From positions 1-22,774 of IMG/VR virus record IMGVR_UViG_3300027906_000166: DNA of 22,774 nucleotides. One strand, given 5' to 3'. The position numbers and the translations under genes are program-made. The DNA is from a virus. Under the pieces are notes generated by a model. The model was not told where the DNA came from. It made no database searches and saw only the letters and a program-made list of their open reading frames with translations. Shown one piece after another: positions 309 to 21,336 of the stretch (position 1 is its first letter; every line of letters starts with the position of its first letter).

Positions 309-1661
309 ATGGCGAACAGACTTCAAAGAATCATGGCGATGGATCAGATGATCCAAAATCGCAATATGCCTCAGCAGGGGATGCAGAATGTTTTTAATCC
401 CACAACAGGAACATTTGTAAGCGTACCCTTTCAGACTGATCCTAATTTTAAAGGGCGCAGGACGGTTATGACTCCCTCTGGCCCTCAAGTGTTACCGGGA
501 TTTAAAGGAGTAGAAAACCCCTATCGACAACTAGGTCGAGGTGTCAGGAATCTACTCGGCAACTTGTTTGATCGTGGATCACTTAGACGAGAAGAAAGAA
601 AACGAGAGCAAGGCATGGAACAAGCAGATCAAATGCTTGATACGATGGATCCGTCAGTTCTTCAGCGTCCTGAGTTTGATCCAGTACCAGACAATCAAGC
701 AAGAATTGACGAGCTTCAAAAAAGAATCAATCGTCCAATTATGCGTGGCCCTGCGCCCCTGCCTACCTTTGACATTTCTAGGGTTAGAGGGCAAACAGCA
801 AAACTTTCTCAAGAAGACAAAAATATTGAAAACTTTTTACCTACTGGCGTTACGTCAGACGGAAGAATTGTAAACGGTCAAACGACTACCAAAGCAACAA
901 GAGAGCAATTACGAACAGCATTACAAGATAGAAAAAGTTTAGAAGGGGTCGATCAAAGAACTAAAGACTTGCGAGGAGAATTTAGAAAAGCTACAGATCA
1001 GTTTTCAAAAATCGATCAAGCTTTTGGTCGGCTACAAGGAAGTCTTACAGGTACAGGGGCAGGGGATTTGTCTTTAATTTTCCAATACATGAAGATTTTA
1101 GATCCCGGCTCAACAGTAAGAGAGGGAGAGTTTGCAACGGCACAAAATTCAGGAGGCGTGGACGATAAAGTAAGAGGTTTATATAATCAAATTGTAGACG
1201 GAGCGCGTCTCGCTGGTAGTCAAAGAATTGACTTTTACGAACGATCTAAAGATTTATACAACGCTGCAAAAGAGGGATATAATTTAAACGTTGCAACTTA
1301 TAACGATCTGGCAGAAAAGTCTAAAGTCAATAAAAATTTAGTTACTTATGATAGGGCAACGTCAGCAGCAGCAGGAGATAAAATAAACATAATTTTAAGT
1401 GGATTAGATGAGTCTGAATTGAACTCCCTAACCAATGAAGATTTAAAAAGGTTAGGCGGTCAGGATTTAGTCAATAGAGTTGCAAAGTTTAAACAAGGTG
1501 GAGGTGAAAGTTCTGCTGACCCATTTGGTTTTTCTACCATGCCACTAGTCACGATTGAAAAAATTGCAAGTCAAGATCGACAATCTTTATTAGATAGTTA
1601 TGGTCAAGAGTTTGTAGATGCTTTAGTAGCAGAGTTAACTAGAAGAGACGAGCAAAAATAA
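309..1661 (+). CDS. Probable phage DNA-ejection/internal virion protein (450 aa)
   Basis: The start has a good ribosome site (AGGAG, 7 bases before ATG). The N-terminal 90 residues are Met/Gln/Asn-rich, residues 90-110 are highly charged, and residues 249-345 form the recognisable part: the stretch MKILDPGSTVREGEFA (about 261-276) followed by a helical, Tyr-rich segment. I know this block from hypothetical internal-virion or DNA-transfer proteins of podoviruses; I cannot name a specific gene. No signal peptide or clear membrane helix is seen. The stop overlaps the next ATG (TAATG), so translation is probably coupled. Leucine codons shift from mainly CTN in the first part to mainly TTA/TTG after about position 790, hinting at mosaic origin. 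Role as an ejected protein is inference from that block and the neighbours. Confidence 0.7.
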   Translation: MANRLQRIMAMDQMIQNRNMPQQGMQNVFNPTTGTFVSVPFQTDPNFKGRRTVMTPSGPQVLPGFKGVENPYRQLGRGVRNLLGNLFDRGSLRREERKREQGMEQADQMLDTMDPSVLQRPEFDPVPDNQARIDELQKRINRPIMRGPAPLPTFDISRVRGQTAKLSQEDKNIENFLPTGVTSDGRIVNGQTTTKATREQLRTALQDRKSLEGVDQRTKDLRGEFRKATDQFSKIDQAFGRLQGSLTGTGAGDLSLIFQYMKILDPGSTVREGEFATAQNSGGVDDKVRGLYNQIVDGARLAGSQRIDFYERSKDLYNAAKEGYNLNVATYNDLAEKSKVNKNLVTYDRATSAAAGDKINIILSGLDESELNSLTNEDLKRLGGQDLVNRVAKFKQGGGESSADPFGFSTMPLVTIEKIASQDRQSLLDSYGQEFVDALVAELTRRDEQK

Positions 1662-3481
1662 TGGCTACTTTACTTGAAGAAATACGATCTCGAAAAAAGT
1701 CAGATAACTCTCAATCTCAAGAATCTGAAATTCCAACTTTAGAGGAATTTGCCCCAACTAGAACTTTGTTAGATGAAGTTAGAAATCAACAGCCAGATAT
1801 TGCAAAAGGAAGAAGGCAATTATTTAGATCAATTACGCCTCAAGCAGTTGATGATTTTGTTGACAGATTTCCATCTGAAACACCTTTAGACGAATTGTTT
1901 AAAGACGTACCGGGAGGGTTAGAAGGAGCGAGAGGCGTGGCAGATGTTGTGCTTTCAGGTGCAACCTCAGTTATTCCTGCGATTGGTAATGTGGTCGGGA
2001 CAGTTGAAGGATTTGGAAAAGCTCTATCAGATGGCAGTTTTGGAACACAAGAAGGCGCAAGAAACATTCAAAGAACTGCAGAGCAAAGGGCTGAAGCGTT
2101 TGGTCGTAACCGATTGATTCCGTTTTATGAGCCTCCCTCAGAAGCAGGAAAGCAATTACAAGAAAATTTAGGTAGATTTGCTGGAAGATATTTACCTCCA
2201 TTTTTATCTGGTGGCCCTAGTCAGTTTCTTACTGGCAGACAACCAACAATTACGAAAAAAGAGGAAACTGCAAATAGAATTAGATCAGGGGATCAAAGTG
2301 CAGAACTTGCGAAAACTAAAATTCCAGATCCCGAAGGTTTTACTAAAGATAAAACAATAGAAAAAGACAGAGAAGCTATCGAAGTAATAAAACAAGGGCT
2401 TGATGAGTCAAAAGTTCAAATGATTAAACAAGCATCAATTCCTGATAAAGAAAGAATGTTAGAAATGGTCAATTTGAGATCAAAGGGATTAACTAACTAT
2501 AAAGAAGAGCAATTAGATAGAGCAAGCGATATACCGGGACAGGCTTTATTCAATAATATTACAAAATTAAGAACTGCAAAAACTAAAGCAGGACAAGAGG
2601 TAAAAAAAGAAGCCAACACTTTGAAAGGCGTTTCTATAGATAACGATCAAGAAGTTTTAAATATCGGTAATAGATTTATAAATGATCTTTCTGAAGATTT
2701 AAATATAGAATTTGATCGAAATTTAAACCCAATTTTTGAAGGCACAACACTTGTTGAAATAAACCCAACGTCTCAAAATTTAATTAAGAAAATTTTTACT
2801 ATTGCAAAAAATCCAAAAGACGCTAAAGGGTTGCATGATCTCAAACAAGCAGTAAACGAAAAACTTAATTATGACAAAAAACAACCCGGAGGGGTTGCAG
2901 GGAGTACAGAGAGAATAATTAAAGATTTTAATCGAGATATAAATAATTATTTAAGAAACAAAAGCGACAGTTACGCTAAAGCAAACGATAAATTCAGTAT
3001 TATTACAGATGCAATAGACAGTTTTAAAGATATTGCACCAGCAAAAACAGATTTCGACTCCATTACAACTTCAAAACAATTTGGCGTTTTATTAAAAGGT
3101 TTAACTTCAGACAGAATGACAAGGGCGCGTTTGCTAGATGCGATTAACAAAGTTCAAACGGTTGGAGGCATAAAGGATCAGAATTTAGTAACTTTATCTC
3201 TTTTTGCACAAAATTTAGATGATCTTTTAGGAAGGCCAAGTGCTGTTACTGGTTTTCGGGGAGAAACTCAAAGAGGCATTGAATCAGCATTAGAAAACAC
3301 TATGTTAGGGCAGCCGACAATGATGCAAACAGGAGTCAACCTAGCAAAAGGCGCAAGGGATAGAGTAAGAGGCATCAATCAAGAAAATGCTCTCCAATCC
3401 ATCAGAAACTTACTTGAACGAGATTTGCGAGAAAACAGACGCAGACAATCAAAGTCTAAAGAGATAGTCCCTAGAAACTAA
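1661..3481 (+). CDS. Probable ejected virion protein with hydrophobic N-terminal module (606 aa)
   Basis: The ATG overlaps the previous stop by one base. The N-terminus is charged, with a weak repeat of a Leu-Leu-acidic-x-x-Arg pattern near residues 4-9 and 36-41. A Gly/Ala/Val-rich hydrophobic stretch at about 91-121 is followed by a charged helix and the motif FYEPPSEAGKQL at about 155-166. The rest is lysine-rich and probably alpha-helical, ending in an Arg-rich tail. The hydrophobic segment plus the 'Y-x-P-x-x-E-x-G' motif also appears in the 607-aa protein at 17374 and is common in large injected phage proteins. Codon use is AT-rich throughout (many TTA, AAA, GAA). Its stop overlaps the converging gene at 3478 by four bases. 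Function in DNA ejection is inferred; no enzyme motif was seen. Confidence 0.65.
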   Translation: MATLLEEIRSRKKSDNSQSQESEIPTLEEFAPTRTLLDEVRNQQPDIAKGRRQLFRSITPQAVDDFVDRFPSETPLDELFKDVPGGLEGARGVADVVLSGATSVIPAIGNVVGTVEGFGKALSDGSFGTQEGARNIQRTAEQRAEAFGRNRLIPFYEPPSEAGKQLQENLGRFAGRYLPPFLSGGPSQFLTGRQPTITKKEETANRIRSGDQSAELAKTKIPDPEGFTKDKTIEKDREAIEVIKQGLDESKVQMIKQASIPDKERMLEMVNLRSKGLTNYKEEQLDRASDIPGQALFNNITKLRTAKTKAGQEVKKEANTLKGVSIDNDQEVLNIGNRFINDLSEDLNIEFDRNLNPIFEGTTLVEINPTSQNLIKKIFTIAKNPKDAKGLHDLKQAVNEKLNYDKKQPGGVAGSTERIIKDFNRDINNYLRNKSDSYAKANDKFSIITDAIDSFKDIAPAKTDFDSITTSKQFGVLLKGLTSDRMTRARLLDAINKVQTVGGIKDQNLVTLSLFAQNLDDLLGRPSAVTGFRGETQRGIESALENTMLGQPTMMQTGVNLAKGARDRVRGINQENALQSIRNLLERDLRENRRRQSKSKEIVPRN

Positions 3482-3818: not shown

Positions 3819-4175
3819 CTAAAATGGTATATCATCATCAACAAGTGGTTGGTCTTTTGGTGACAAGAATTGGAAGCTAAAGGCTTTGATGATTGTAGAA
3901 TATCTCCTCTCTCCTTCCTTCTCCCATTCCCTATACTGAATCTTGCCCTCGACATATATCTTTGAACCTTTCTTGAGCGTGTCGGCTGCCTCGGCTATTG
4001 CCCCTCTGAACTCTACTTTGTGCCATTCAGTTTGCTCTTTTCTTTCACCTTGAGAAGTTTTCCACTTGTCTGAAGTAGCAAGGCTGATGGTCATGGTCTT
4101 AGTACCATCCTCCCAGTATTTGATATCTGGATCTCGGCCAAGATTCCCCACCAAAATCACTTTATTCACTGACAT
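3819..4175 (-). CDS. ssb: Single-stranded DNA-binding protein
   Basis: Classic bacterial-type SSB: it begins MSVNKVILVGNLGRDPDIKY, the first strand of the OB fold, and carries the conserved WHKVEFRG and KGSKIYVEGKIQYREW blocks at about 51-58 and 69-84. The linker is very short and the acidic tip is DDDIPF, the usual docking peptide for exonucleases and other SSB partners. At 118 aa it is shorter than host SSBs, which is normal for phage versions. The ribosome site is GGAGG, 6 bases from ATG. The start overlaps the exonuclease gene by 14 bases. It probably coats ssDNA made during replication and supplies the substrate for Erf annealing. Confidence 0.95.
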   Translation of the reverse strand: MSVNKVILVGNLGRDPDIKYWEDGTKTMTISLATSDKWKTSQGERKEQTEWHKVEFRGAIAEAADTLKKGSKIYVEGKIQYREWEKEGERRYSTIIKAFSFQFLSPKDQPLVDDDIPF

Positions 4176-4992
4176 TGTTTGCCTCCGTTATGTTGATTTT
4201 TTTGTAAGTCGATGACTTGGAAAAATACGGTTCGAGTTGCTTATAAAGATTCGGATCTTCCTCTTCCAACTTTTTAAGATTAAGAGATCCTTTTTTTTGA
4301 ACAGTTTTAACTGTCACTCCAAACCCAAAACACTCGCCCTGATTTTTAAGAGTTTCGCCTATTGCGTCTAACTGGGCTTTGATTGCCTTCTCTTGTTTCT
4401 TCAGGCTCTTGTACTTAGTCGCCATGTCCCCAAAAGCCTCATCTGTTCTTTCAGATTCAAACTTGTTCCATGCCTCTATGAGTTGGCTAAAGTGATCCTC
4501 AGTAATATGACATTCCTGAAGTCTGGTTCTATCCTCGTCATAAGTGTACAAAAACGTCCGTTCAGCCCCGGAACAGAGTTTTTGGTGAACTAATTGCCAA
4601 AATGTAGGGTGCTTTTCGTCCAAATCGTCCCAGTACGCACTAGAAGGGCTTGAGGGACATTTTATCTCTACGATGACCTCTACCCCTTCCAGTTCGCCAA
4701 AAGCGTCCAGAGAGGCTCCAAATAGCCCCATTTCGTAACAACGTGGCTCCAAATGTATTCCAAGGTGTTCCCCTACTGCTGCCCTAGCAATAGGCTCCAT
4801 GTTCGACCCTCTGACCATCGCCTCGTTAACAAAAGTGGGTTTCTTGTCTGCCTTCTGCTTTCTCAAAGCGTTTTGGGATTGATGAGGATTGACGTTCATA
4901 ACGGTGGGAGTTTCAGAGGCGGTACGGAGTGACTCACGCCACTCCAACCACTCCCGGGAACCTTGCTCTAAAAAGACTCGTTTATTCTCCAT
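4162..4992 (-). CDS. YqaJ/lambda-exonuclease family recombination nuclease
   Basis: A 5'-3' dsDNA exonuclease of the YqaJ viral-recombinase fold, degrading one strand at DNA ends so that an annealing protein can pair the other. Visible motifs, in order: RGSNMEP at 61-67 (catalytic Glu66), GASLDAFGE at 92-100 (metal-binding Asp96), VEIKCPSS at 108-115 (the E-x-K pair Glu109/Lys111) and FWQLVHQ at 131-137 (Gln133). This is the full PD-(D/E)xK set. Length (276 aa) fits the family. The C-terminal third is helical and charged. The start overlaps the Erf stop by 11 bases and relies on a weak AAGG site, so coupling is likely. The pair with Erf and SSB makes a Red-like recombination system. Confidence 0.92.
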   Translation of the reverse strand: MENKRVFLEQGSREWLEWRESLRTASETPTVMNVNPHQSQNALRKQKADKKPTFVNEAMVRGSNMEPIARAAVGEHLGIHLEPRCYEMGLFGASLDAFGELEGVEVIVEIKCPSSPSSAYWDDLDEKHPTFWQLVHQKLCSGAERTFLYTYDEDRTRLQECHITEDHFSQLIEAWNKFESERTDEAFGDMATKYKSLKKQEKAIKAQLDAIGETLKNQGECFGFGVTVKTVQKKGSLNLKKLEEEDPNLYKQLEPYFSKSSTYKKINITEANNVSE

Positions 4993-5605
4993 CAGTGACA
5001 GCCTTTTGAGTTGCTTGATCTATAGCTCTTTTTAGCTTCGCCTCAATCTGTGCGTCAGTCATCTTCTCTTTACGCCAGTTCTCAATTGTCTTGGGATAAA
5101 CTATTTTGGCTTCGAGAGCTTTAGCAATAATTCCACTCTCTTTAACTTCTTGCTTGGGCATTGTGCCAATTTTCTTGATTTGTTCTTTGGTGCTTTTCTT
5201 GTGAGTGGCTTCTGCACCATTCCCATCATCGTCTTCATCAGATCCGATTCCGCAAGCTGTAGCAAGTGAGTATCTTTTTGCGTATGTCAGGGCAGATCCG
5301 TAACCTTGAGGCGAGTTCTTATCCAGTGGCACAGTCGTAAGCCCAAAGCTCATCTGACCATCCGGGCCGTGGAAGATTGTCTCAACACAAACAGCGTTCT
5401 CTCGCTCGTGTACTTTTTGTTGATAGAAAATGCCGTTCTTGTTGAGAGGCTCCTTAACTGCATCGATGATAGCCTCTAGCGTGGCATACGTTGATTTAAA
5501 GTGAGGATTTGGTTTGTCTTTTACAGCGTGAGTGATCTCTGACTGAGCCTTTACGAGCGCAGTCATAAAGGCTTGTGTTTCTAGATTTTTGTTTATCTCT
5601 AACAT
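4982..5605 (-). CDS. erf: Erf-family single-strand annealing recombinase
   Basis: Homologue of P22 Erf, which anneals complementary single strands and helps circularise or concatenate phage DNA. Seen: an N-terminal AFMTALVKAQSEI helix, NPHFKSTYATLEAII, the hallmark GYGSALTYAKRYSLATACGI at about 101-120 and the acidic EDDDGNG at 124-130. I start it at 5605 rather than 5668: that ATG has an AAGGGG site 7 bases upstream and is separated by one base from the stop of the preceding 58-aa gene, and the longer form adds 21 residues that do not look like Erf. The product is 207 aa, typical of the family. The C-terminal part is a charged helical region probably used for oligomerisation or partners. Confidence 0.92.
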   Translation of the reverse strand: MLEINKNLETQAFMTALVKAQSEITHAVKDKPNPHFKSTYATLEAIIDAVKEPLNKNGIFYQQKVHERENAVCVETIFHGPDGQMSFGLTTVPLDKNSPQGYGSALTYAKRYSLATACGIGSDEDDDGNGAEATHKKSTKEQIKKIGTMPKQEVKESGIIAKALEAKIVYPKTIENWRKEKMTDAQIEAKLKRAIDQATQKAVTDGE

Positions 5606-5606
5606 A

Positions 5607-5783
5607 TTAGTTCCCCTTGATTGAACATTGTGGTTGAAGGTTTTTATAGTCCGGATGGATACCATCACAAACGTCTTTAAAATACTGCTGTTCTTGAATT
5701 AGCTCGTCTTGATAGTCCTGATTGCCAATCAAACCAAGAGCTAAAAGGATCGCTGCAAGGATGCTTAGGTTCTTTAGGCTCAT
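5607..5783 (-). CDS. Small membrane-anchored or exported protein (58 aa)
   Basis: A short gene between the 93-aa gene and Erf. The ATG overlaps the upstream stop (ATGA) and has GGAG 8 bases upstream; the TAA stop is one base before the Erf ATG, so it sits exactly in the operon. The product starts MSLKNLSILAAILLALGLIG, a signal peptide or single membrane helix, followed by a polar tail with two cysteines in a CDGIHPDYKNLQPQC arrangement that could form a disulfide in the periplasm. Small phage proteins with a hydrophobic start and a similar Cys/Pro/Asp-Tyr tail are known to me only as hypotheticals. The topology is inferred; the coding call rests on the overlaps and ribosome site. Confidence 0.75.
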   Translation of the reverse strand: MSLKNLSILAAILLALGLIGNQDYQDELIQEQQYFKDVCDGIHPDYKNLQPQCSIKGN

Positions 5784-6061
5784 AGGTTATGCTCCCTTAC
5801 AATTCTCAAAGCCTCAGAACAATCATTTCCTACTGAAAGATCGTGCGACGCTGCTTCAAACTTTAAATCATCTTTCCATTGATCGTAGTCTTCAAGGATG
5901 CTTTCAAGAAGTTGCAGAGGATTGTCGCTCTTAGATTTGTCATCAACAGCCTCTTTAATGGTTTCGACTAAACCATCTTCAGCGTTAATAAATTCAAACC
6001 ACAAGCTATATTCATCTCTCTTAATCCGTTTGCTTTCTGAAACAAGTTTATCGTTTGTCAT
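5780..6061 (-). CDS. Hypothetical acidic protein (93 aa)
   Basis: Soluble, acidic and helical, with no cysteines pairs, membrane segments or known motif. The ATG at 6061 has a good AGGGAG site 5 bases upstream, and the stop overlaps the next start by ATGA. It is the second gene of the leftward early operon. The middle region (about 30-70) is Asp/Glu-rich with bulky hydrophobics, typical of small phage proteins that bind host factors, but this is only a resemblance in composition. I do not recognise the family and propose no function. Confidence 0.75.
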   Translation of the reverse strand: MTNDKLVSESKRIKRDEYSLWFEFINAEDGLVETIKEAVDDKSKSDNPLQLLESILEDYDQWKDDLKFEAASHDLSVGNDCSEALRIVREHNL

Positions 6062-6070
6062 AATGTCTCC

Positions 6071-6280
6071 CTAATTAGAAATCTTGCTAGTGGCGTAAAC
6101 ATTTATTTGGTCAACTTCACTTATTTCATTTGCCAACTCTTGACGAACTTGTTTGTTCCAACTTTTAAAGAAATAATTTTTTTCAATCTCTTCAAAAACT
6201 TCTTTTTTGGAGTGGCCTTTGTTCAAAAGCCTCACAATTTCGTCTTGATAATTTCTCATGCGCTGGATCTTGTTTGTCAT
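6071..6280 (-). CDS. Hypothetical protein, first gene of the leftward early operon (69 aa)
   Basis: Start chosen at 6280 (MTNKIQRMRNYQ), because it has an AAAGGGAG ribosome site 7 bases upstream; the in-frame ATG at 6304 lies in the promoter/operator region and would add eight odd residues. The protein is helical and mixed-charge: a short basic N-terminus, a segment resembling a winged or HTH-like helix pair (EIVRLLNKGHSKKEVFEEIE at about 12-31), then a polar tail. The 'LLNKGHSKKEVFEEI' pattern looks like the first two helices of a helix-turn-helix, so it could be a small regulator, but it is too short and divergent to be sure. It is the promoter-proximal gene of the recombination operon. Confidence 0.7.
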   Translation of the reverse strand: MTNKIQRMRNYQDEIVRLLNKGHSKKEVFEEIEKNYFFKSWNKQVRQELANEISEVDQINVYATSKISN

Positions 6281-11404: not shown

Positions 11405-11589
11405 TGACAGAAGAGTTAAAGGGCAGAATTGAGATATTAGAACAGCAGCGAAACGATGCGATGAATCAATGCGTTTTGTTAGGCGGCCAGATCAAACAGA
11501 TGATCGAACAGATTGAAGCATTGAAGAAGTTAAAGGATTTAGAGTCAGAAAGCGGTGTAGATCAAGAAATTGAAAATACTGAATCTTGA
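11404..11589 (+). CDS. Small coiled-coil protein (61 aa)
   Basis: TGATG overlap with the previous gene. The sequence is one long heptad-like helix (LKGRIEILEQQRNDAMNQCV, then GGQIKQMIEQIEALKKL) with an acidic tail, suggesting a dimeric coiled coil. It overlaps the ParB-methyltransferase start by 20 bases. No ribosome site of quality is seen. Proteins of this shape before terminase or methyltransferase genes are known as hypotheticals; no function is proposed. Confidence 0.7.
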   Translation: MTEELKGRIEILEQQRNDAMNQCVLLGGQIKQMIEQIEALKKLKDLESESGVDQEIENTES

Positions 11590-12901
11590 AATAGATAACA
11601 TTTTTCCGTATGAGAAAAATCCTCGTAAAAACGACGAGGCTGTTAACGTGGTAGCTAAGTCCCTCGAGGAGTTCGGGTTCCAGCAACCGCTAGTATTAGA
11701 CGCAAATAATGTCATTGTAGTTGGCCACACCAGATTTAGTGCAGCAAAGCAGCTTGGTTTAGAAACAGTGCCTTGCGTGATTGCAGATCACTTATCAAGT
11801 GAGCAGATTAACGCGTACAGAATTATGGACAACAAGTCAGCAGAGTATGCAAATTGGGAGAATGATTTGTTGTTAGGCGAAATAAATAGCCTAATTGATA
11901 GCGGCTATGATTCAGAATTAACAGGATTTTCTAAGGAAGAAATAACAGACTTAAAACTAGAGTTTGACTTAAGTTTTGCCTACGACAGCGTCAATAAGGG
12001 CGCATTGTCCGAAAGGTTCGGAGCACCACCTTTTAGCGTTTTGAACGCTCGAGCTGGCTACTGGCAAGATCGAAAAAAAATGTGGGCATCCTTAGGAATT
12101 GAGTCTGAGCAAGGGCGTGACGATAATTTATTAAAATATAGTAAAGTTACTCGACTGAAAACGGGGACGAGCGTATTTGACCCTGTTCTCTGCGAGCTTG
12201 TTTATAAATGGTTTTCTGCGCCTAGAGCCAAGGTTTTAGATCCATTTGCGGGAGGAAGCGTTCGAGGCATAGTAGCGGCTAAAACGGGGAGAAGCTATTT
12301 CGGAATCGATTTGCGAGCAGAGCAAATAAAAGCAAATGAATTACAAGCGAAAAAAATAGCCCCGGCAGAAGATATAGTTTGGAAGCTCGGCAATAGTCAA
12401 GACATCTTGAGCATAGCAAAGGGTGTAGAGGCTGATCTTATATTTACTTGCCCGCCTTACTCTGATTTAGAAGTCTATAGTGATGACCCAGAAGATCTTT
12501 CAACTATGGACTATGGTCAATTCATAGAAGCTTATCGGGACATTATTTCAAAAAGCTGCTCGCTGCTGAAGGATAACTCCTTTGCCGCAGTAGTTGTCGG
12601 AGAGATTAGGGACAAAGCGGGGGTTTATAGGAATTTCGTTGGCGATACCGTTAAAGCGTTTATAGATGCTGGTCTCGATTATTACAATGAGGCCATTTTA
12701 GTCACTATGATTGGTACTTTACCTCTAAGGACAGAAATAGCCTTTAATTCTGCTAGGAAGCTAGGTAAGACACATCAAAATGTCCTTGTTTTTGTGAAAG
12801 GTGATCCCATACAAGCGGCTGAAAAAATTGGGGTCGTTGACTTTTCAGAAATACAGAATGGTACAGAAAATGGCGAGCGAATACTCCAAACTTACGGATG
12901 A
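11570..12901 (+). CDS. ParB-like nuclease domain fused to DNA methyltransferase
   Basis: Residues 1-90 form a ParB/Srx-like N-terminal domain (IFPYEKNPRKND near 11-22, VVGHTRFSAAKQLG at 50-63, GHTR being the usual signature). A linker with FGAPPFSVLNARAGYW (150-165) leads to a class-beta-type methyltransferase: TCPPYSDLEVY at 293-303 is motif IV and LDPFAGGSVRG at 223-233 motif I (SAM binding). Motif IV has Cys where Asp, Asn or Ser is usual. The fusion is frequent in phages next to terminase, where it may modify phage DNA against host restriction. The only start is TTG at 11570, agreeing with the ParB N-terminus. Product about 443 aa. Target base and sequence cannot be read. Confidence 0.87.
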   Translation: MKILNLEIDNIFPYEKNPRKNDEAVNVVAKSLEEFGFQQPLVLDANNVIVVGHTRFSAAKQLGLETVPCVIADHLSSEQINAYRIMDNKSAEYANWENDLLLGEINSLIDSGYDSELTGFSKEEITDLKLEFDLSFAYDSVNKGALSERFGAPPFSVLNARAGYWQDRKKMWASLGIESEQGRDDNLLKYSKVTRLKTGTSVFDPVLCELVYKWFSAPRAKVLDPFAGGSVRGIVAAKTGRSYFGIDLRAEQIKANELQAKKIAPAEDIVWKLGNSQDILSIAKGVEADLIFTCPPYSDLEVYSDDPEDLSTMDYGQFIEAYRDIISKSCSLLKDNSFAAVVVGEIRDKAGVYRNFVGDTVKAFIDAGLDYYNEAILVTMIGTLPLRTEIAFNSARKLGKTHQNVLVFVKGDPIQAAEKIGVVDFSEIQNGTENGERILQTYG

Positions 12902-13385: not shown

Positions 13386-14613
13386 AATCCCAACTGCGTT
13401 CAAAGAGTTGTTTGAGCAGCATCGATACAAAGTCTATTGGGGAGGACGAGGCGCAGGGAAGTCGGTTCAAATGGCTTCAGCACTTCTGCTAAAGGGAACG
13501 GAAAGCCCGAAAAGAATTTTATGCGCCAGAGAGATCCAGAGATCAATCAAAGATTCTGTTCACTCTCTATTAGAGTCTCGCATTAAAGCGTTAGGGTTGC
13601 ATAATTTTTATGAGGTAACCCAAAACGAGATTCGTGGGGTTAATGGGACGTCTTTCATCTTTTCAGGATTATGGCAAAACATAGAAAGCATAAAATCGAT
13701 AGAGGGCATTGATTATTGTTGGGTCGAAGAGGGCAATAAGGTTTCAGAGAACTCTTGGAGGACTTTGATTCCTTCAATACGAAAGCCCGGATCTGAGATA
13801 TGGGTGAGCTTCAATCCAGAGCATAAGACAGACGCAGCGTACCAGAGATTTGTTCTGTATCCACCGCAAAACGCAATGGTCAAGAAAGTCAGCTATCGGG
13901 ACAATCCGTACTTTAGTCAGACAACGCTCCCAGAAGAGATGCAAATCCTCAAAGATCAGAACGAGGAAGAATATCTTCATGTATATGAGGGCGAGCTAAA
14001 GCAATTCGTTGACGGATCGATCTACAGAAAGCAACTTCAGCAAGCGAGAGACGAAGGTCGGATTTGCTGGTTCCCAGTCGAAAGCCTTGAGGTGCATACA
14101 TTTTGGGATCTAGGTAGGAACGATTCGACTGCGATATGGTTCATGCAAGCAGTTGGAAAGGAACTGAGATTTATTGATTACTATGAACATAGGTTAGTGG
14201 ACTTAGATCATTATGCTCATGTCCTCAAGGAAAAAGGCTATCTCTACGGAACACATTATCTTCCTCACGATGTTGAGGTGATCTCGTTAGGAAGTAACAA
14301 CCGAAGCAGGAGAGACATCTTGGAGGGATTAGGAGTGCATCCGATTACGACTGTTCCGAGGATAGCAAGCGTTGAAGATGGTATAGCGATGGTGCGAGAT
14401 AAATTTAAAGCTTGCTGGTTCCATGAAAACTGCGAAGAAGGTTTAGAGGCTCTCTCAAACTACCAATACCAGTTCGATGAGAAACATGACACATACAGAA
14501 AAGTGCCTCTTCATAACGCAGCAAGCAATGGGGCTGACGCCTTCAGAATGTTTGCGCAAGCGTTTGAGGAAGACACATATATCCAAGAACTCGACTTTGC
14601 AAGTGAGTGGTGA
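13351..14613 (+). CDS. Terminase large subunit
   Basis: ATP-driven packaging motor and nuclease. Seen: Walker A GGRGAGKS at 31-38, Walker B with its glutamates in IDYCWVEEG at 120-128, the SFNP coupling motif at 153-156, and the RNase H-like nuclease aspartates in FWDLGRNDS (Asp253), LPHDVE (Asp307) and NGADAFR (Asp396). 420 aa is normal for the PBSX/Terminase_3-like group. The start overlaps the small subunit by 35 bases without a strong ribosome site. The stop is shared with the portal start (TGATG). DNA moves through the portal ring encoded next. Confidence 0.95.
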   Translation: MKSVLQTKQKTKIPTAFKELFEQHRYKVYWGGRGAGKSVQMASALLLKGTESPKRILCAREIQRSIKDSVHSLLESRIKALGLHNFYEVTQNEIRGVNGTSFIFSGLWQNIESIKSIEGIDYCWVEEGNKVSENSWRTLIPSIRKPGSEIWVSFNPEHKTDAAYQRFVLYPPQNAMVKKVSYRDNPYFSQTTLPEEMQILKDQNEEEYLHVYEGELKQFVDGSIYRKQLQQARDEGRICWFPVESLEVHTFWDLGRNDSTAIWFMQAVGKELRFIDYYEHRLVDLDHYAHVLKEKGYLYGTHYLPHDVEVISLGSNNRSRRDILEGLGVHPITTVPRIASVEDGIAMVRDKFKACWFHENCEEGLEALSNYQYQFDEKHDTYRKVPLHNAASNGADAFRMFAQAFEEDTYIQELDFASEW

Positions 14614-16589
14614 TGAAAAGAAATAGCGAACAACAAAACGAGATCGTCAAAGAGGCGTTAGAACGCTTTGAAACTGCGTCCGATGGGTGGTCAGACATCT
14701 ATGAGCAATCCGTCGCTGATGTCTCTTTTATCGATGACGATGAGGGTCAGTGGGAGGATTCAGTCCGAGAATCGAGACACAATCGTCCTTGCTTAACTTT
14801 TGACAAGCTCTCTGCATCCGTTGACCGAGTTGTTGGAGGCCAAATGGCACAAATGCCCTCAGTCAAAGTCAGAGCCGCAGAGGAAGGCGATGAGGACATA
14901 GCTGAAGTCTACCAAGGGTTAATACGTCAAATCGACCAGAGAGGCATACAAGCCTTTAAAACGGCATTTAAGTTTGCGGTTAAGTCCGGGTGGGGCTGTC
15001 TACTGGTGGATCACGATTACATCGATGACGTTTCTCTCGATCAAGACATTATCCTTCGAGAGATCAAGAATCCGTTTTCTGTACTCCTTGACCCAATTAT
15101 CCAAGCTCAACACGTTCAAGAGGCTCGCTTTGGCTTTATGTTTGAGGACATGGAGCGCAAAGAGTTTGAAAGGCTTTACCCAGACGCAGAGTCTTATCCG
15201 GGTGAAAGCGACTTCACTTCAACTGGCAATATGGATTCATGGGTAAGCGAGGACTTTGTACGAGTAGCTGATTACTTTAGGATTTCGCTAGAAGAGAAAA
15301 CGCTAGTCCAACTTTCAGACGGACGAGTCCTAGACTTGGAAGAAGTCCAGCCAGTTAGAGACGAGTTGAATCTGCAAGGCATTACACTAGGCAAGACCAG
15401 AAAGATTCAGAAGCGAAAGCTAGAGCGATTCAAGATCAGCGGCATGGAGATACTTGAAGAGGTTGAGTGCGTTGGAAGATTCATTCCTCTTGTCCCAATG
15501 TTTGGTAAGACTTCCAACATTAACGGTCGTTACATCACAAGAGGCATTGTACGCAAAGCTAAGGACGCTCAGAGACTCTATAACTACTCCAGAAGCGTAG
15601 CAGTCGAGGTTACAGCCCTCACTCCTAAACAGCCTTACTTCGTAACGCCAGCAATGATTAAGGGGCATGAGAGCAAGTGGAAGAACATGATGGTTTCAAA
15701 CGATCCAGTTCTTCAGTTTAATTTTGACCAAGGGCAGAAACCTTACAGAGAATCCCCAGCACAAGGATCACCCGGACTCTTGCAAGATGCTCAGTTCGCA
15801 GCCGAGGACATCAAAGCAACCACCGGGATATTTGATGCAAACATAGGACAACAAGGCCAAGAGACTTCAGGCGTAGCAATCGGTCGAAGACAGTTTCAAG
15901 GCGAGATGTCTAACTTTGAGTATCAAGATCAACTCATTGACTCAATGGAGTTAGCCGGAAGGATTATGATCGACATGATCCCTGCCGTGTACGACACCGA
16001 AAGAACAATCAGGATTATAGGCGAGGACGAGCGAGAGGAAACGATCAGTGTCAATAAGACTTTGATGGACGCTCAGACAGGGACATTCGTCAAGACAATG
16101 GACTTGAACGCAGGAAACTATGACATCAAGATCGCAAGCGGCCCATCCTTCACAACTCGGAAGCAGGAAACAGCAGAACAACTGTCCTCGATGATTGCTC
16201 AAAACCCTGCCATGAGTCAGCTAGTTGGAGACATTCTATTCCAGAACCTTGATCTAGTGGGAGGCGATGAAGCGATCAAACGTCTCAGAAGCGCAGGAGT
16301 TAAAGCAGGAATCATAGAGCCTAACCAAGAAGAGGCCGTTGCACTTCAGTCTCAGATTGAATCTAGCAAGCAACTAGAGCAACAAGCAGCGCAGTTAGAA
16401 CTCGCACTCAAACAAGCAGAAGTCTCAACCGAAAGAGCCGAGGCAATAGAACGAGAAAGCAAAGCAGCGATGAACACAGTCAAAACAGCAGTCGAGCAAA
16501 TGAAGCTTGCAGAAGCTCAGGAAGACTTAGAATCTAAGCAGATCGCTCAGATGAGATTACGTCAGTCAGTGGGGCTACCAGTTATTTGA
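14613..16589 (+). CDS. P22-like portal protein (658 aa)
   Basis: Forms the ring at the DNA vertex. The sequence has the P22-gp1-type features: WSDIYEQSVADVSFIDDDEGQW near the start (shown in part), RPCLTFDKLSASVDRVVG, GWGCLLVDHDY, then ITRGIVRKAKDAQRLYNYSRS, GQETSGVAIGRRQFQGEMSN, and a C-terminal Gln/Glu/Ala coiled coil. Start at 14613 overlaps the terminase stop; GTG codons at 14607 and 14610 are possible but not needed. At 658 aa it is somewhat shorter than P22 gp1 (725), mostly at the C-terminal barrel. The length and coiled coil suggest a long internal barrel. Confidence 0.92.
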   Translation: MKRNSEQQNEIVKEALERFETASDGWSDIYEQSVADVSFIDDDEGQWEDSVRESRHNRPCLTFDKLSASVDRVVGGQMAQMPSVKVRAAEEGDEDIAEVYQGLIRQIDQRGIQAFKTAFKFAVKSGWGCLLVDHDYIDDVSLDQDIILREIKNPFSVLLDPIIQAQHVQEARFGFMFEDMERKEFERLYPDAESYPGESDFTSTGNMDSWVSEDFVRVADYFRISLEEKTLVQLSDGRVLDLEEVQPVRDELNLQGITLGKTRKIQKRKLERFKISGMEILEEVECVGRFIPLVPMFGKTSNINGRYITRGIVRKAKDAQRLYNYSRSVAVEVTALTPKQPYFVTPAMIKGHESKWKNMMVSNDPVLQFNFDQGQKPYRESPAQGSPGLLQDAQFAAEDIKATTGIFDANIGQQGQETSGVAIGRRQFQGEMSNFEYQDQLIDSMELAGRIMIDMIPAVYDTERTIRIIGEDEREETISVNKTLMDAQTGTFVKTMDLNAGNYDIKIASGPSFTTRKQETAEQLSSMIAQNPAMSQLVGDILFQNLDLVGGDEAIKRLRSAGVKAGIIEPNQEEAVALQSQIESSKQLEQQAAQLELALKQAEVSTERAEAIERESKAAMNTVKTAVEQMKLAEAQEDLESKQIAQMRLRQSVGLPVI

Positions 16590-16798
16590 TAACTACTCTT
16601 TACCTGATTAGTAATTTAACTTGGTATCACTTCAAAGACTTCAACGGTGACTACCAAATCGATGCGTGTTTAGGCACTAAAGCGCACATACAGAAGAACT
16701 TTAAGGTCAAGGGCGTTTGCTTATCAAAGTGGGATGACATTCTTATCCTCGACAACAAGGTATATTTTAATGGAAAAAAAAGATCCCAGACTTACTAG
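16586..16798 (+). CDS. Hypothetical protein with TTG start (70 aa)
   Basis: The only in-frame start is TTG at 16586, overlapping the portal stop (TTGA). No good ribosome site is present; GGGG lies 12 bases away. The product is aromatic-rich, with a predicted beta-type pattern (TWYHFKDFNGDYQIDA, then VCLSKWDDILILDNKVYF) and a basic tail. It fills the gap between portal and the next gene and keeps operon spacing, which argues for coding. I do not recognise it. It may be a small head-proximal protein; confidence is limited. Confidence 0.5.
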   Translation: MITTLYLISNLTWYHFKDFNGDYQIDACLGTKAHIQKNFKVKGVCLSKWDDILILDNKVYFNGKKRSQTY

Positions 16799-16824
16799 GG
16801 CGAACCACAAATAGGAGAGACGTT

Positions 16825-16935
16825 ATGCCAAATGTAAAAGGTAAGAAGTTCCCTTACACAAAAGAAGGAATGGCAGCAGCAACGGCTAAAAAGAAAACAA
16901 AGAAAGCTAAAGAGAAAGGTGGATACGACAAATGA
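16825..16935 (+). CDS. Small basic protein (36 aa)
   Basis: AGGAGA lies 6 bases before ATG, and the TGA stop overlaps the ATG of the next gene (ATGA), so it is a well-placed gene. The product starts MPNVKGKKFPYTKEGMAAAT and continues with lysine-rich AKKKTKKAKEKGGYDK. I recall very similar 'NGKKFPYT-x-x-G-x-x-AA' mini-proteins in other podoviruses near portal and scaffold genes, always unnamed. Thirteen lysines suggest DNA binding or packing in the capsid. Function unknown. Confidence 0.7.
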   Translation: MPNVKGKKFPYTKEGMAAATAKKKTKKAKEKGGYDK

Positions 16936-17381
16936 ATCAACCGATGAATCGCACTCCGGCTCAAGACTTGGTTATGTCTCGCAGAGAAACACCGGGAACA
17001 GGTACGGCAGGAGCTACCGCACTAGCCAACAAAATGAACGTACCACGCACGGCATTACCCTCGTCAACGCCTCAAACGAATATGCCTGAGCTACCTATGA
17101 ACCCGATGCAAATGGTCACAGGTAAGGACGGCAAGAAATACCAGATCGTGATTGATCCAAGTACAGGCTTACAAACTTTTATTCCCTATCGTGAACCAGC
17201 AGGCAGAGGAATGGGGCAGATGCGTGGAATGGGCGAGATGCGAGGTATGGGACAAATGCCCGGAGCTTCTGGACAAGGCGGCAGGATGGAGCGCATACAA
17301 CAACTCGCAAGTCGTATGGGGCAAATGCAAGGCCAAAATCCGACTAATCGTCTAAGTAGTCTACTGTCTGCAAGTGGCTAA
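16932..17381 (+). CDS. Gly/Met/Gln-rich structural hypothetical (149 aa)
   Basis: The first 60 residues are rich in Pro, Thr and Met; residues 63-86 (TGKDGKKYQIVIDPSTGLQT) form the only domain-like part. Residues 93-110 are a short repeat of MGQM/MGEM-RG units (GMGQMRGMGEMRGMGQMP), with another MGQMQG at 129-134. The C-terminus is helical. No enzyme motif or membrane segment. Low complexity suggests a flexible virion protein. The start overlaps the previous stop (ATGA), and its stop overlaps the GTG of the 607-aa gene. Confidence 0.7.
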   Translation: MNQPMNRTPAQDLVMSRRETPGTGTAGATALANKMNVPRTALPSSTPQTNMPELPMNPMQMVTGKDGKKYQIVIDPSTGLQTFIPYREPAGRGMGQMRGMGEMRGMGQMPGASGQGGRMERIQQLASRMGQMQGQNPTNRLSSLLSASG

Positions 17382-19197
17382 TCAACTTGCTCCCAGAATG
17401 GAACGCAGGGGCGGTGGTGGTGTAAACCGTCTCTTAGGCATCATCGAGCCAGCTATGACAGTTGGTTCTGCGATTGCTGCTGAGGTTCCTGCCCTTGCAG
17501 TTGGTCTAGGTTCTCTTAACACAGTGGAAGACAGTCAAAGACCGCTGAGTGACGCAGTAACAGCCGCAGACGAAGTTAGAGAGATGCTTACCTATAACCC
17601 TCGCTCGATGGAGGGTCAGGCAGGGATGCAGTCTCTTATAAACTCTGTTAGTCAATTAGCCGACACGGTTGGACTCGATAGAGCCTTTCAAGTCTTGAAC
17701 GAAGAGATCATTCCTAGAGTACAAAGCACACTAGGCGAAGACGCTGCGAGAGAACTTGGCTCGATGGCGATGATGATCCCGGCTGTTAAAAGAGTCACAA
17801 AAGTAGTGCAGCCAAGCGCAGACATAGAACAAGAAATAATTGACCCTGATAAAAATTTAATGTTTTTGCAGAACACAAGCCCTGAAGCCTTGCAGAGTTT
17901 TGACGAGATTGGCGGTATGCCAATGCCGTCTTTAGCAGTCACAAAAGAAGACATACCCTTTGAGGGATTTGGAGAAATAACTTTAGTCGGAAAACCTGAG
18001 AGCTTTGATCCGAGAGCTTCAAGAACTAACGAAATGTTTTCTGCTGACGCTTACACAGTGCGTGCGCCAAGACCAATGCAATTAGCAAAGAAAAACGCAG
18101 ACGATATTTTTGAAGAGAAATTCGGGACATCAAAAGAATTAGAACAACTGGATGTGAATGCTTATGGTTTGATAGAGAATTTAAGGTCACTATCATCTAA
18201 AAATCGGGCGTATCCAGAAAGTTATAACCGTATTTCCGAGTTTTTTGAAATTCCAAGAATTGCTAAAAAATTATTTGCATTAGATCAAGGTTATGACAAA
18301 AACAAGTTACCAAAACAAAATGATTCTGTAGAAGTAAGAAAACAAAAAGAAATAGAGTTAAATGATTTTATCAGTCAAAAAGAAGATTTAGAGTTTATAA
18401 GAAACAAATCTGAAAACAAAAATAATTTGTTGGAATCTTGGAAAGAAAAACAACTTTCTGATCTGTTGGAACCTGAAAAGGTTTTTGTCACAAACCCTGA
18501 CCGTGATTATGTTACCGGCAGAGCTATTATTAAACCATATACCGCAGAAAACGTGACAAAATTCATGCGAAAAAGTAGTGGGCAAAATCAAGAGGTAGGA
18601 TTTGATCAGTCAAGCATTGGAGCGCAAAGAGCCGCGACTGCTGAACCAATTAAATCCTTAAAACAAGCAAGAGAAAGAAAAGATGAATTACAAACAAAAG
18701 ACGCACTTGAAGAGTTAAAAGAAAAACAGTACGAAGCCTTTGACGCAATCACAGAAGATTTAAAAAAATATTATGAATTTAATTCTGATCGTTTTGGTTT
18801 TGTTGATGAAGTAGGTGAATTGATAAAAATATCAGAGCGAAAAGGATTAGACGCTGCGTTTCGAGAAGTTGGATTTAAAGATGTCCCAGATGATTTGAAA
18901 GACGCAATCAACGAGTATAAAGATTCGTTACGCTCTGCACCTACTCAGTATTTTGAAGCAAAACCTAAACGAGTTGTTGATCTATCAGAATTCGGAGGGG
19001 CAATTGTTCCTAAAGGATCTGAGCCACAAATTAGAAAAATTTTAGAAAAATACGGAATCACTCGCTTGAAAACATACGAAACAGACGTTGAAAGAACTGC
19101 GGCACGAAAAGCCTTTCAGGACTTAATGTTTTCTATTGGATTACCTGCAACAGTCGCAGGGTCAATAATTTATGGGGAAGAAGATCAATCGGTTTAA
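17374..19197 (+). CDS. Large virion-associated protein with a polyvalent-protein-type domain (607 aa)
   Basis: N-terminal part: hydrophobic Gly/Ala-rich stretch at about 26-48, then the motif MLTYNPRSMEGQAGMQ at about 71-86. Residues about 161-235 (LQNTSPEALQSFDEIGGMPM, PSLAVTKEDIPFEGFGEITL, then FDPRAS...SADAYTVR) match the domain found in large polyvalent proteins of phages and conjugative elements: 'GG-x-P-x-PS-x-AV...GFG-x-I-x-L...DAYT-x-R'. These proteins are typically injected and counter host defence. The rest is lysine-rich and helical, ending in a short hydrophobic segment and acid tail. Codon use changes sharply at about 17830, at the start of that domain. Start GTG 17374 assumed (overlap with previous stop); ATG at 17398 is the alternative. 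No catalytic residues identified. Confidence 0.7.
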   Translation: MANQLAPRMERRGGGGVNRLLGIIEPAMTVGSAIAAEVPALAVGLGSLNTVEDSQRPLSDAVTAADEVREMLTYNPRSMEGQAGMQSLINSVSQLADTVGLDRAFQVLNEEIIPRVQSTLGEDAARELGSMAMMIPAVKRVTKVVQPSADIEQEIIDPDKNLMFLQNTSPEALQSFDEIGGMPMPSLAVTKEDIPFEGFGEITLVGKPESFDPRASRTNEMFSADAYTVRAPRPMQLAKKNADDIFEEKFGTSKELEQLDVNAYGLIENLRSLSSKNRAYPESYNRISEFFEIPRIAKKLFALDQGYDKNKLPKQNDSVEVRKQKEIELNDFISQKEDLEFIRNKSENKNNLLESWKEKQLSDLLEPEKVFVTNPDRDYVTGRAIIKPYTAENVTKFMRKSSGQNQEVGFDQSSIGAQRAATAEPIKSLKQARERKDELQTKDALEELKEKQYEAFDAITEDLKKYYEFNSDRFGFVDEVGELIKISERKGLDAAFREVGFKDVPDDLKDAINEYKDSLRSAPTQYFEAKPKRVVDLSEFGGAIVPKGSEPQIRKILEKYGITRLKTYETDVERTAARKAFQDLMFSIGLPATVAGSIIYGEEDQSV

Positions 19198-19217
19198 CGC
19201 ACCGTAAAAGCGTGGGC

Positions 19218-19244
19218 TTACTTGCTGCCCTCTTAGCAAGGTAA
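19218..19244 (+). other. Hairpin before the scaffold gene
   Basis: TTACTTGCT (19218-19226) pairs with AGCAA-G-GTAA (19235-19244): nine base pairs with one bulged G and an 8-base loop. No T-run follows, so it is not an intrinsic terminator. It sits 22 bases before the scaffold ATG, upstream of the GGAG site. It may be an RNA processing or translation-control element in the late mRNA. Confidence 0.45.
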
Positions 19245-19266
19245 ACATTCGTGGAGACGTACTCAT

Positions 19267-20136
19267 ATGGAAACTGATGCAGCAATAGCTGAGGCTGAAA
19301 TATTGCCAACGGAAATAGAGCAAGCCGGACAAGATGCTCAAGAGCCTTCACAGGGCGAAACCTCTGAAGCAGTAGAAACTCCAGAAACCGAGGAGAAAGC
19401 CGCAGAAGAGTCATCCGGGGACGAGACACCCGAAAAACTAGCAGAAGAGAAGCAGAAAAAGCGTAACTCTGTTCAAGAAAGAATCTCACAACTGGCACGA
19501 CAAAAAAATGATGCGAACACTCGTGTACAAGAACTAGAACAGCAAGTTGCTTACTTACAGGCTCAGAGTCAGCCTCAAGCTCAAGATGCGCCACAAGCCT
19601 ATCCAAGACTTGAAGACTACGACTACGACGAAGCAAGACATCAACAAGCAGTTCTACAGTACACCTCAAGCGTAAATGCTCAGAACGTGCAACAGGTCAT
19701 GCAGCAACAACAGCAAGCCCAGATTGCCCAGCTACAAGCTCAGAAGGCACAAATTGCGTCTCAAGAGTTTGTAGAGAAAAGCAATGCATTTGCTTTGGAC
19801 TACAAGGACTTCAACGAAACTGTTACTAATCCTAATTTCCATCAAAGTGATCAAGTAGCAAGGACGATTGTTGAATTGCCAAATGGCCCTGATGTTGCGT
19901 ATTACCTTGGCAAGAACTTAAAGATTGCCAACGCTCTGAACAATAAAAGCGAAAGGGACGCCAGAGATGATTTAATTAGAATCTCAACAGCGTTACAAGT
20001 GAACTCTCGGAAACGTCGTGCTAACACTACTAACGCTCCTACGCCCGGAAAGACGGTGACACCTAAAGGAAAAGTCTCTAAGGACTTGGATAAGATGTCT
20101 CCCGAAGAATATCGAAAGGCAAGGGGCTATACTTAA
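19267..20136 (+). CDS. Capsid scaffolding protein (289 aa)
   Basis: Called from position (between portal and coat) and shape. Residues 1-60 are very acidic with Pro and Ala, residues about 70-160 are Gln-rich coiled coil (QELEQQVAYLQAQ, VQQVMQQQQQAQIAQLQAQK), and the C-terminus is basic (NSRKRRANTT, then TPKGKVSKDLDKMSPEEY), which in P22 gp8 is the coat-binding part. 289 aa is near P22 gp8 (303). It should assemble the procapsid with the coat and then leave. GGAG lies 10 bases from ATG, preceded by the hairpin at 19218-19244. No sequence identity to gp8 is claimed. Confidence 0.75.
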   Translation: METDAAIAEAEILPTEIEQAGQDAQEPSQGETSEAVETPETEEKAAEESSGDETPEKLAEEKQKKRNSVQERISQLARQKNDANTRVQELEQQVAYLQAQSQPQAQDAPQAYPRLEDYDYDEARHQQAVLQYTSSVNAQNVQQVMQQQQQAQIAQLQAQKAQIASQEFVEKSNAFALDYKDFNETVTNPNFHQSDQVARTIVELPNGPDVAYYLGKNLKIANALNNKSERDARDDLIRISTALQVNSRKRRANTTNAPTPGKTVTPKGKVSKDLDKMSPEEYRKARGYT

Positions 20137-20148
20137 AGGTAAATTAAC

Positions 20149-21336
20149 ATGGCTAATTCATTGCTCACACCGAGCATAATCACGAAAGAAGCCCTTGCTA
20201 TACTTCATCAGAAGCTTAATTTCATAGGTACGATTAACAGGCAGTACGATGACCAGTATGCTCAAAGTGGGGCTAAAATTGGATCGGACTTAAAAATCCG
20301 ACTTCCTAACGAGTTTACTGTTAGAACTGGCGCAACTCTCTCGTCGCAAGACGTAACAGAGCAAAGCGTAACTCTTTCAGTTGGGACTCAAAAAGGTGTG
20401 GACTTTACGTTCTCATCCCAAGAGTTGTCTTTGACAATTGATGAGTTCAAAGCACGATACATTGAACCAGCAATGGCGGTATTGGCTGCGAACATTGAAA
20501 GCGATGCTTTTTCGATGTCGAAGGACGTAAGTAATTTCGTTAATGGAGTAGGCTCTGCAAACTCCTTTGCCAACATAACGAAAGCACAAAAGGAACTGAC
20601 CCTTGGCCTAGCTCCTTACGGTGATCGAGTGTACATGCACGATCCTCAAAGTGTTGTGGATATGCTGGCAGACACGAAAGGACTCTTTCAAGACTCTGGA
20701 CAGATCGCAAAGCAGTACAAAGAAGGTATGCTAGGACGGATCTCAGGATTTGATCACTATGAAAATACCCTTGTCCCCACCCATACCACTGGAACGGCTG
20801 CGGCTACAACATCCTACTTAGTCAATGGGGCGAGTCAAACTGGCTCTTCTTTGACAGTAGATGGAGGATCAACGACCTTCCTAGTTGGTGACATCATCAC
20901 TATCGCAGGAGTCAATAGAGTTCATCCTGAGACTAAAGCCGATACCGGCGTTCTTCAGAACTTTGTTGTGACCGCAAACTCAGGTAGCTCTGCGACAAGT
21001 CTATCCATATCACCCGCTATTACTGCTTCAGGCGGCAATCAGAATGTTAGCGGTAGCCCTGCTGACAACGCTGCTGTCAGTAAGTTAGGCGGTGGCAATG
21101 GTGCAGATTGGACTGATACTTTGGCTTATCACAAGGACGCGTTCTGTTTTGCTACAGCTGACCTTGTTATGCCGGAGGGAGTTGACTTCAGTGCGAGAGA
21201 AGTAATGGACGGTATCTCTATGAGAATCGTGCGAGACTACTCAATCAGTGCTGATACCTTCCCTTGTAGAATAGATATCTTGTACGGATATAAGACTATC
21301 CGTCCTGAGATCGCTACGAGAGTGGGCATTAACTAA
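20149..21336 (+). CDS. P22-like major coat protein with I-domain
   Basis: HK97-fold coat of the P22 gp5 type. The N-terminal part (NSLLTPSIITKEALAILHQK) and E-loop region (KIGSDLKIRLPNEFTVRTGA) resemble gp5. Residues about 211-308 are an inserted beta-rich domain, TFLVGDIITIAGVNRVHPET and NFVVTANSGSSATSLSISPA, matching the P22 I-domain 'GDKI-x-FAGV'. The C-terminus RIDILYGYKTIRPEIATRVG also fits 'IALWYG-x-x-x-TRPE'. 395 aa against 430 in P22. AAAGGT lies 8 bases before ATG. A strong terminator follows directly, so coat mRNA may exceed that of downstream genes. Confidence 0.92.
   Translation: MANSLLTPSIITKEALAILHQKLNFIGTINRQYDDQYAQSGAKIGSDLKIRLPNEFTVRTGATLSSQDVTEQSVTLSVGTQKGVDFTFSSQELSLTIDEFKARYIEPAMAVLAANIESDAFSMSKDVSNFVNGVGSANSFANITKAQKELTLGLAPYGDRVYMHDPQSVVDMLADTKGLFQDSGQIAKQYKEGMLGRISGFDHYENTLVPTHTTGTAAATTSYLVNGASQTGSSLTVDGGSTTFLVGDIITIAGVNRVHPETKADTGVLQNFVVTANSGSSATSLSISPAITASGGNQNVSGSPADNAAVSKLGGGNGADWTDTLAYHKDAFCFATADLVMPEGVDFSAREVMDGISMRIVRDYSISADTFPCRIDILYGYKTIRPEIATRVGIN

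Follow-up and report, generated by a model that had tools for sequence, protein, structure and literature searches.

The window, meaning the whole 22,774-base stretch of DNA analysed here, is an IMG/VR virus record. Because terminase, portal, scaffold, coat and a gp4-like protein follow in order, it was assigned to a P22-like podovirus. Between portal (PF16510, end 16589) and scaffold (phrog_8865, start 19267) lies an intact plus-strand open reading frame, 17374–19197, encoding 607 amino acids from a GTG start that overlaps the stop of the 16932–17381 gene; only 69 bases separate its own stop from the scaffold start. This position, already pointed out in an earlier note on the sequence, is consistent with head cargo, and the reading frame is referred to below as the cargo gene. 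The features discussed are as follows.

4162–5668, minus strand: YqaJ-type exonuclease (4162–4992) and ERF-family annealing protein (4982–5668), a phage recombination pair
14607–16589, plus strand: P22-like portal (PF16510, E = 4e-155)
16932–17381, plus strand: Gly/Met/Gln-rich 149-amino acid gene, its stop overlapping the cargo start codon; a homologue is kept in a relative without the cargo gene (L052)
17374–17793, plus strand: trunk (residues 1–140), helical and Lys-poor, the proposed packaging/ejection part
17794–17835, plus strand: junction and flexible linker (residues 141–154); 17793 is the last position of DNA identity with ART-type alleles before the cassette; pLDDT is below 50 at residues 139–153
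17836–19137, plus strand: PBECR5-type effector module (residues 155–588), delimited by homologue alignment and predicted as one unit
17839–18378, plus strand: match to the Pfam profile PF18814 PBECR5 (residues 156–335)
17869–17871, plus strand: codon CAG, Gln166; His in 73/79 aligned sequences
18931–19137, plus strand: C-terminal block of the module (residues 520–588), with invariant Y526, E528, K530, F540 and A543
19188–19266, plus strand: conserved 3' flank, TCGGTTTAA, comprising the last cargo codons and then the scaffold leader
19267–20136, plus strand: head scaffolding protein (phrog_8865)
20149–21336, plus strand: P22-like coat protein (PF11651)

Elsewhere in the record, a protein encoded upstream of the terminase genes (11570–12901) joins an N-terminal ParB domain to an N6/N4 DNA methylase. 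The late protein at 1661–3481 matches phrog_5880 weakly; a strong phrog_5880 member occurs near a PBECR5 protein in another contig (L105, 30–2021). Several small Lys-rich genes are found between portal and 149-amino acid gene in related contigs (L002 2497–3277, L007 4710–5466, L009 68–1007, L011 4595–5453 and L012 1915–2478). Most have been lost from the window (16589–16935), where a truncated reading frame, MEKKDPRLTRANHK, remains, with its end at 16814.

A break in leucine codon use near 17830, reported in the earlier note, was borne out. CTN and TTR codons number 11 and 3, respectively, in residues 1–155, and 6 and 29 beyond; the best split of the gene falls between the leucines at residues 128 and 162 (permutation p = 0.0018), and comparison of leucine codon use with TerL, portal, scaffold, coat and gp4 gave a Fisher p of 3e-7. 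Across the break, GC content falls from 0.51 to 0.36. The window genes at 309–1661 and 1661–3481 are also low in GC and TTA-rich, and because such AT-rich, TTA-rich genes occur elsewhere in the genome, composition alone is no proof that the downstream part was acquired. Residues 236–607, described as lysine-rich, do contain 11% Lys, yet their net charge is −8, so that the Lys content is AT-driven (AAA codons) and the region is not basic.

Evidence for acquisition came instead from comparison with relatives. A scan of viral contigs returned 16, six of them with the window's module. Nine of the 16 match residues 1 to ~149 only (or whatever part of these is present) at 86–92% identity, as does L016 at 77%, before running into other sequences. 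The trunk is thus common to relatives with other C-termini (70–94% amino acid identity), and residues 1–140 and both flanks are kept at ~93% DNA identity. Between the window and L008, DNA identity exceeds 90% up to 17793 and again from 19189, with nothing significant between, which places the comparative DNA boundary at codon 140–141, near the 17830 given in the earlier note. Both junctions of the cassette are sharp, the left after ...MMIPAV(K/R)R and the right at TCGGTTTAACGCACCG. The right-junction sequence provides the last codons in the PBECR5 allele, lies untranslated past the stop in the ART-B/C alleles, and is intergenic in L052. The latter is a natural empty site, the whole gene being missing between the 149-amino acid homologue and scaffold. 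These alignments show that, in this phage group, whole effector modules are swapped between two conserved stretches, residues 1–140 on one side and the scaffold leader on the other, and that the gene is absent from this site in one relative. By the same comparison, the codon break is a real exchange point, and the acquisition proposed from codon use is seen directly as block replacement.

The exchange could also be followed as incongruence between backbone and cassette. L016 and L005 are mostly 95–99% identical in the backbone from TerL to gp10 (86–91% in a few stretches), whereas their cassettes are ~50% identical and unrelated. Conversely, the window and L005 are 63–88% identical over most of the backbone and 91–98% at both cassette ends. 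The incongruence is therefore reciprocal, one pair sharing backbone but not cassette and the other cassette but not backbone. Synonymous distance between the window and L003 drops from 0.79 in the trunk to 0.35 in the module. In comparisons with L005 and L016, the cassette flanks (window 17600–17793 and 19188–19400) show 82–97% identity and the adjacent backbone 62–68%, a pattern to be expected from homogenisation of the flanks by recombination running through them.

Counted as contigs, which are not independent events since several are near-copies, the site carries the PBECR5 module in seven (the window and L002–L007), type B in nine (L008, L011–L015, L017 and the fragments L143 and L144), type C in two (L009 and L010) and type D in one (L016), with no gene in one (L052). 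Besides PBECR5, the relatives thus carry at least three unrelated C-termini, one a near-threshold ART-PolyVal and two recognised by motif only. Type D scores 28.8–28.9 bits against ART-PolyVal (PF18760; cut-off 31.2, E = 2e-6) and has homologous stretches in ~50 viral contigs, mostly inside very large open reading frames. Types B and C appear ART-like by motif and weak scores only, and the structure model of an ART-B allele, with a pLDDT of 44, was of too low quality to be used. All type B alleles (L008, L011–L015, L017) read YIGS where the ART motif is YHGS; if ART, the type B module may be without the catalytic His. A search for further module types through the scaffold gene gave no new type.

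For the module of the window itself, the profile search supported the claim of a polyvalent-type domain. Cargo residues 156–335 match PF18814 PBECR5 of Pfam, a family that is nuclease-like and belongs to large polyvalent phage proteins, with E = 3.8e-18 and 66.7 bits against a cut-off of 25, and the relatives L002, L003 and L007 also pass this cut-off. An alignment-based scan found relatives at 80 loci, and 78 viral homologues align end to end over residues 155–588. Ten positions are invariant in the window module and these 78 homologues (S186, G200, D225, Y227, R230, Y526, E528, K530, F540 and A543). An AlphaFold model of the cargo protein, built with 60 sequences as input, has pLDDT values mostly above 90 at residues 155–588 and low values in the linker (139–153); the trunk is modelled as helical, with low to moderate confidence. 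Because the homologues align over the full length, both end blocks hold invariant residues and the model forms one confident unit, residues 155–588 are read as a single PBECR5-type unit with predicted helical insertions. The earlier note had placed the domain at residues ~161–235, which do correspond to the conserved N-terminal block of PBECR5, but the module runs on to residue 588; the 370-residue remainder, proposed there as a separate new effector, is part of it.

Foldseek searches against viral models gave large polyvalent proteins and 'Nuclease' entries as best matches (E down to 4e-24). With the full cargo model against the PDB there was no match with E ≤ 0.001, a result for the whole model and not its core, which does not exclude a BECR fold. 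For the window module, the nuclease fold is thus best taken as a family label. Known defence-system families gave a weak match only (E = 0.013). The possibility that PBECR5 is a disguised ART fold, raised by the resemblance of HNTS to HGTS, was rejected (hhalign probability 0.8%).

Both conserved blocks have a dN/dS of ~0.05 (window against L007, dN ~0.015 and dS 0.26–0.34), and since dN is so far below dS in both, the protein is maintained. The middle of the module (residues 241–500) is variable, with dN 0.27. This variability, together with the location of the gene inside the head-gene block, would fit an ordinary head or neck assembly protein with a fast-evolving C-terminal half and an incidental similarity to PBECR5. 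Such a protein would not be expected to be replaced abruptly at one codon by mutually unrelated modules while its flanks stay at ~93%, nor to be missing altogether from L052; with both conserved blocks matching a named effector family under strong purifying selection, we regard this explanation as very improbable.

We consider it likely that this P22-like podovirus packages the product of the gene in its head and ejects it as cargo, the protein being made up of a short trunk and an exchangeable effector. We infer its virion location, delivery and activity, with packaging and ejection argued by analogy from gene position and family precedent. The trunk would carry the protein into the procapsid, plausibly via portal and scaffold, which are encoded on either side, and the protein would exit with the DNA. 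Once in the host cytoplasm, the linker-joined module would act on RNA or bind it as a decoy, so as to disable a host function or defence; protection of the incoming DNA is one possible role. The conserved flanks would probably serve exchange by homologous recombination, in which the phage's own ERF/YqaJ pair might take part, and selection would vary the choice of payload, not phage assembly.

Catalysis by the module is put in doubt by residue 166, its only conserved His column. The window, L002, L003 and L007 alone have Gln at this position and form one supported group; L073 and L074 have Met. The two proteins with this second change are 936 amino acids long and carry the module near the N-terminus. 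Iyer et al. (2017, PMC5512222) describe a helix His as the usual catalytic residue of BECR domains and propose that the PBECR of phage Mu MuF is non-enzymatic and binds RNA or acts as a decoy. The window module could likewise have lost nuclease activity with the change of His166 to Gln and serve as an RNA-binding or decoy domain, a variant of the packaged-cargo explanation that differs in its last step only. Loss of a His otherwise present in 73 of the 79 sequences, in the window clade and again in L073/L074, with the remainder conserved at the low dN/dS given above, favours this variant, as does the Mu precedent. The model, however, places position 166 in the first strand (residues 162–168), not in a helix as in the BECR description, so that its equation with the BECR catalytic His, and hence its catalytic role, is putative; the invariant D225, Y227, R230, Y526, E528 and K530 could serve other chemistry. 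We treat loss of catalysis as a serious possibility, though less likely than not. Because the sole conserved His is Gln166 despite strong purifying selection elsewhere, catalysis by the window module is uncertain, and the module would be an enzyme whose active site has changed or else a form that only binds.

The trunk was examined separately. It has one hydrophobic stretch (residues 27–45), and searches of bacterial and archaeal genomes and cultured phages detected no homologue outside the window's phage group, so that its role is a guess. A MuF domain was rejected, since PF04233 matched neither the protein nor anything else in the record, as was kinship with the N-terminal part of the 1661–3481 late protein, with which the trunk shares a YxPxSxxG-like motif (hhalign probability 0.2%). 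Among open-licence papers, none was found on the trunk or on payload exchange at the P22-like portal-scaffold site. At 140 residues, the trunk is nevertheless a candidate for a compact adaptor by which proteins could be brought into a P22-like head.

Similar arrangements occur in other phages. An otherwise different P22-like phage (L077) has a 672-amino acid protein (4254–6272) between portal and scaffold, with terminase upstream; in it, an N-terminus of its own is combined with an HGTS-bearing stretch (ART-like by eye) and a PBECR5 module. A PBECR5 protein directly follows the phrog portal in L112 and lies a few genes upstream of the portal in L119 and L123; P22-like phages without such a portal-scaffold gene also exist (for example, L031 and L036). 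Among cultured phages, the module was found at 25–39% identity in Acinetobacter phage Ab9, Cobetia phage Carin1 and Roseobacter phages CRP-901/902 (annotated 'nuclease'). It is embedded in proteins of more than 2,800 amino acids in Ab9 and Carin1, and in a 510–520-amino acid protein with another N-terminus in CRP-901/902; in all of these the His is present, unlike in the window.

In P22, the genes for the ejection proteins gp7, gp16 and gp20 lie elsewhere in the genome than the portal-scaffold gap. The three are minor head proteins that exit with the DNA, as the cargo protein would (PMC8402733); the trunk gave no family match to the gp7, gp16 or gp20 families. Large polyvalent proteins with PBECR domains typically have 2–15 domains and often more than 1,000 residues, are predicted to be injected and are encoded among virion genes (Iyer et al. 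2017, PMC5512222; PF18814, PF18760). The cargo protein resembles them in its PBECR5 module, in the ART-PolyVal-type module of the sister allele in L016 and in the location of its gene among virion genes, but differs in carrying one effector on a 140-residue trunk, in a 607-amino acid protein swapped between near-identical phages. The cargo protein thus works like a large polyvalent protein and is not classed as one, having a single module and not at least two effector/LPD domains.

In MuF polymorphic toxins (Jamet et al. 2017, PMC5576092), whose genes closely follow that of the portal, the N-terminal part is constant and the C-terminal domain, a nuclease or an ART, varies. The cargo gene shares this logic: position downstream of the portal, constant N-terminus and variable C-terminal effector. 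If the cargo were a toxin of the MuF kind, carried by the phage for competition between bacteria, it would call for a linked immunity gene and for lysogeny. MuF toxins belong mainly to temperate phages of Firmicutes, whereas the cargo is found in a P22-like podovirus on an unrelated trunk, the record being free of MuF domains, and the 69 bases before scaffold leave no room for a small immunity gene downstream. The small Lys-rich post-portal genes were considered as immunity partners and rejected, as they vary independently of effector module type. Seven family records, each of which may be partial, contained no integrase. Taken together, a competition toxin of this kind appears unlikely.

Returning to the packaged-cargo explanation, a broader reading is that the P22-like portal-scaffold gap is a dedicated cargo slot in which whole modules (PBECR5 and several ART-like) are exchanged through recombination at fixed flanks, behind a non-MuF trunk serving as a general adaptor for packaging and ejection, constituting an undescribed polymorphic-effector system aimed at host defences; on this we are evenly divided. 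For payloads of the polyvalent or MuF type, the usual evidence is gene position and domain content. In the present group, because near-isogenic natural phages differ mainly in payload, and the site in L052 is empty, the effect of a single injected effector would be directly comparable. The Gln166 clade poses a clear question, that of PBECR domains as enzymes or as binders.
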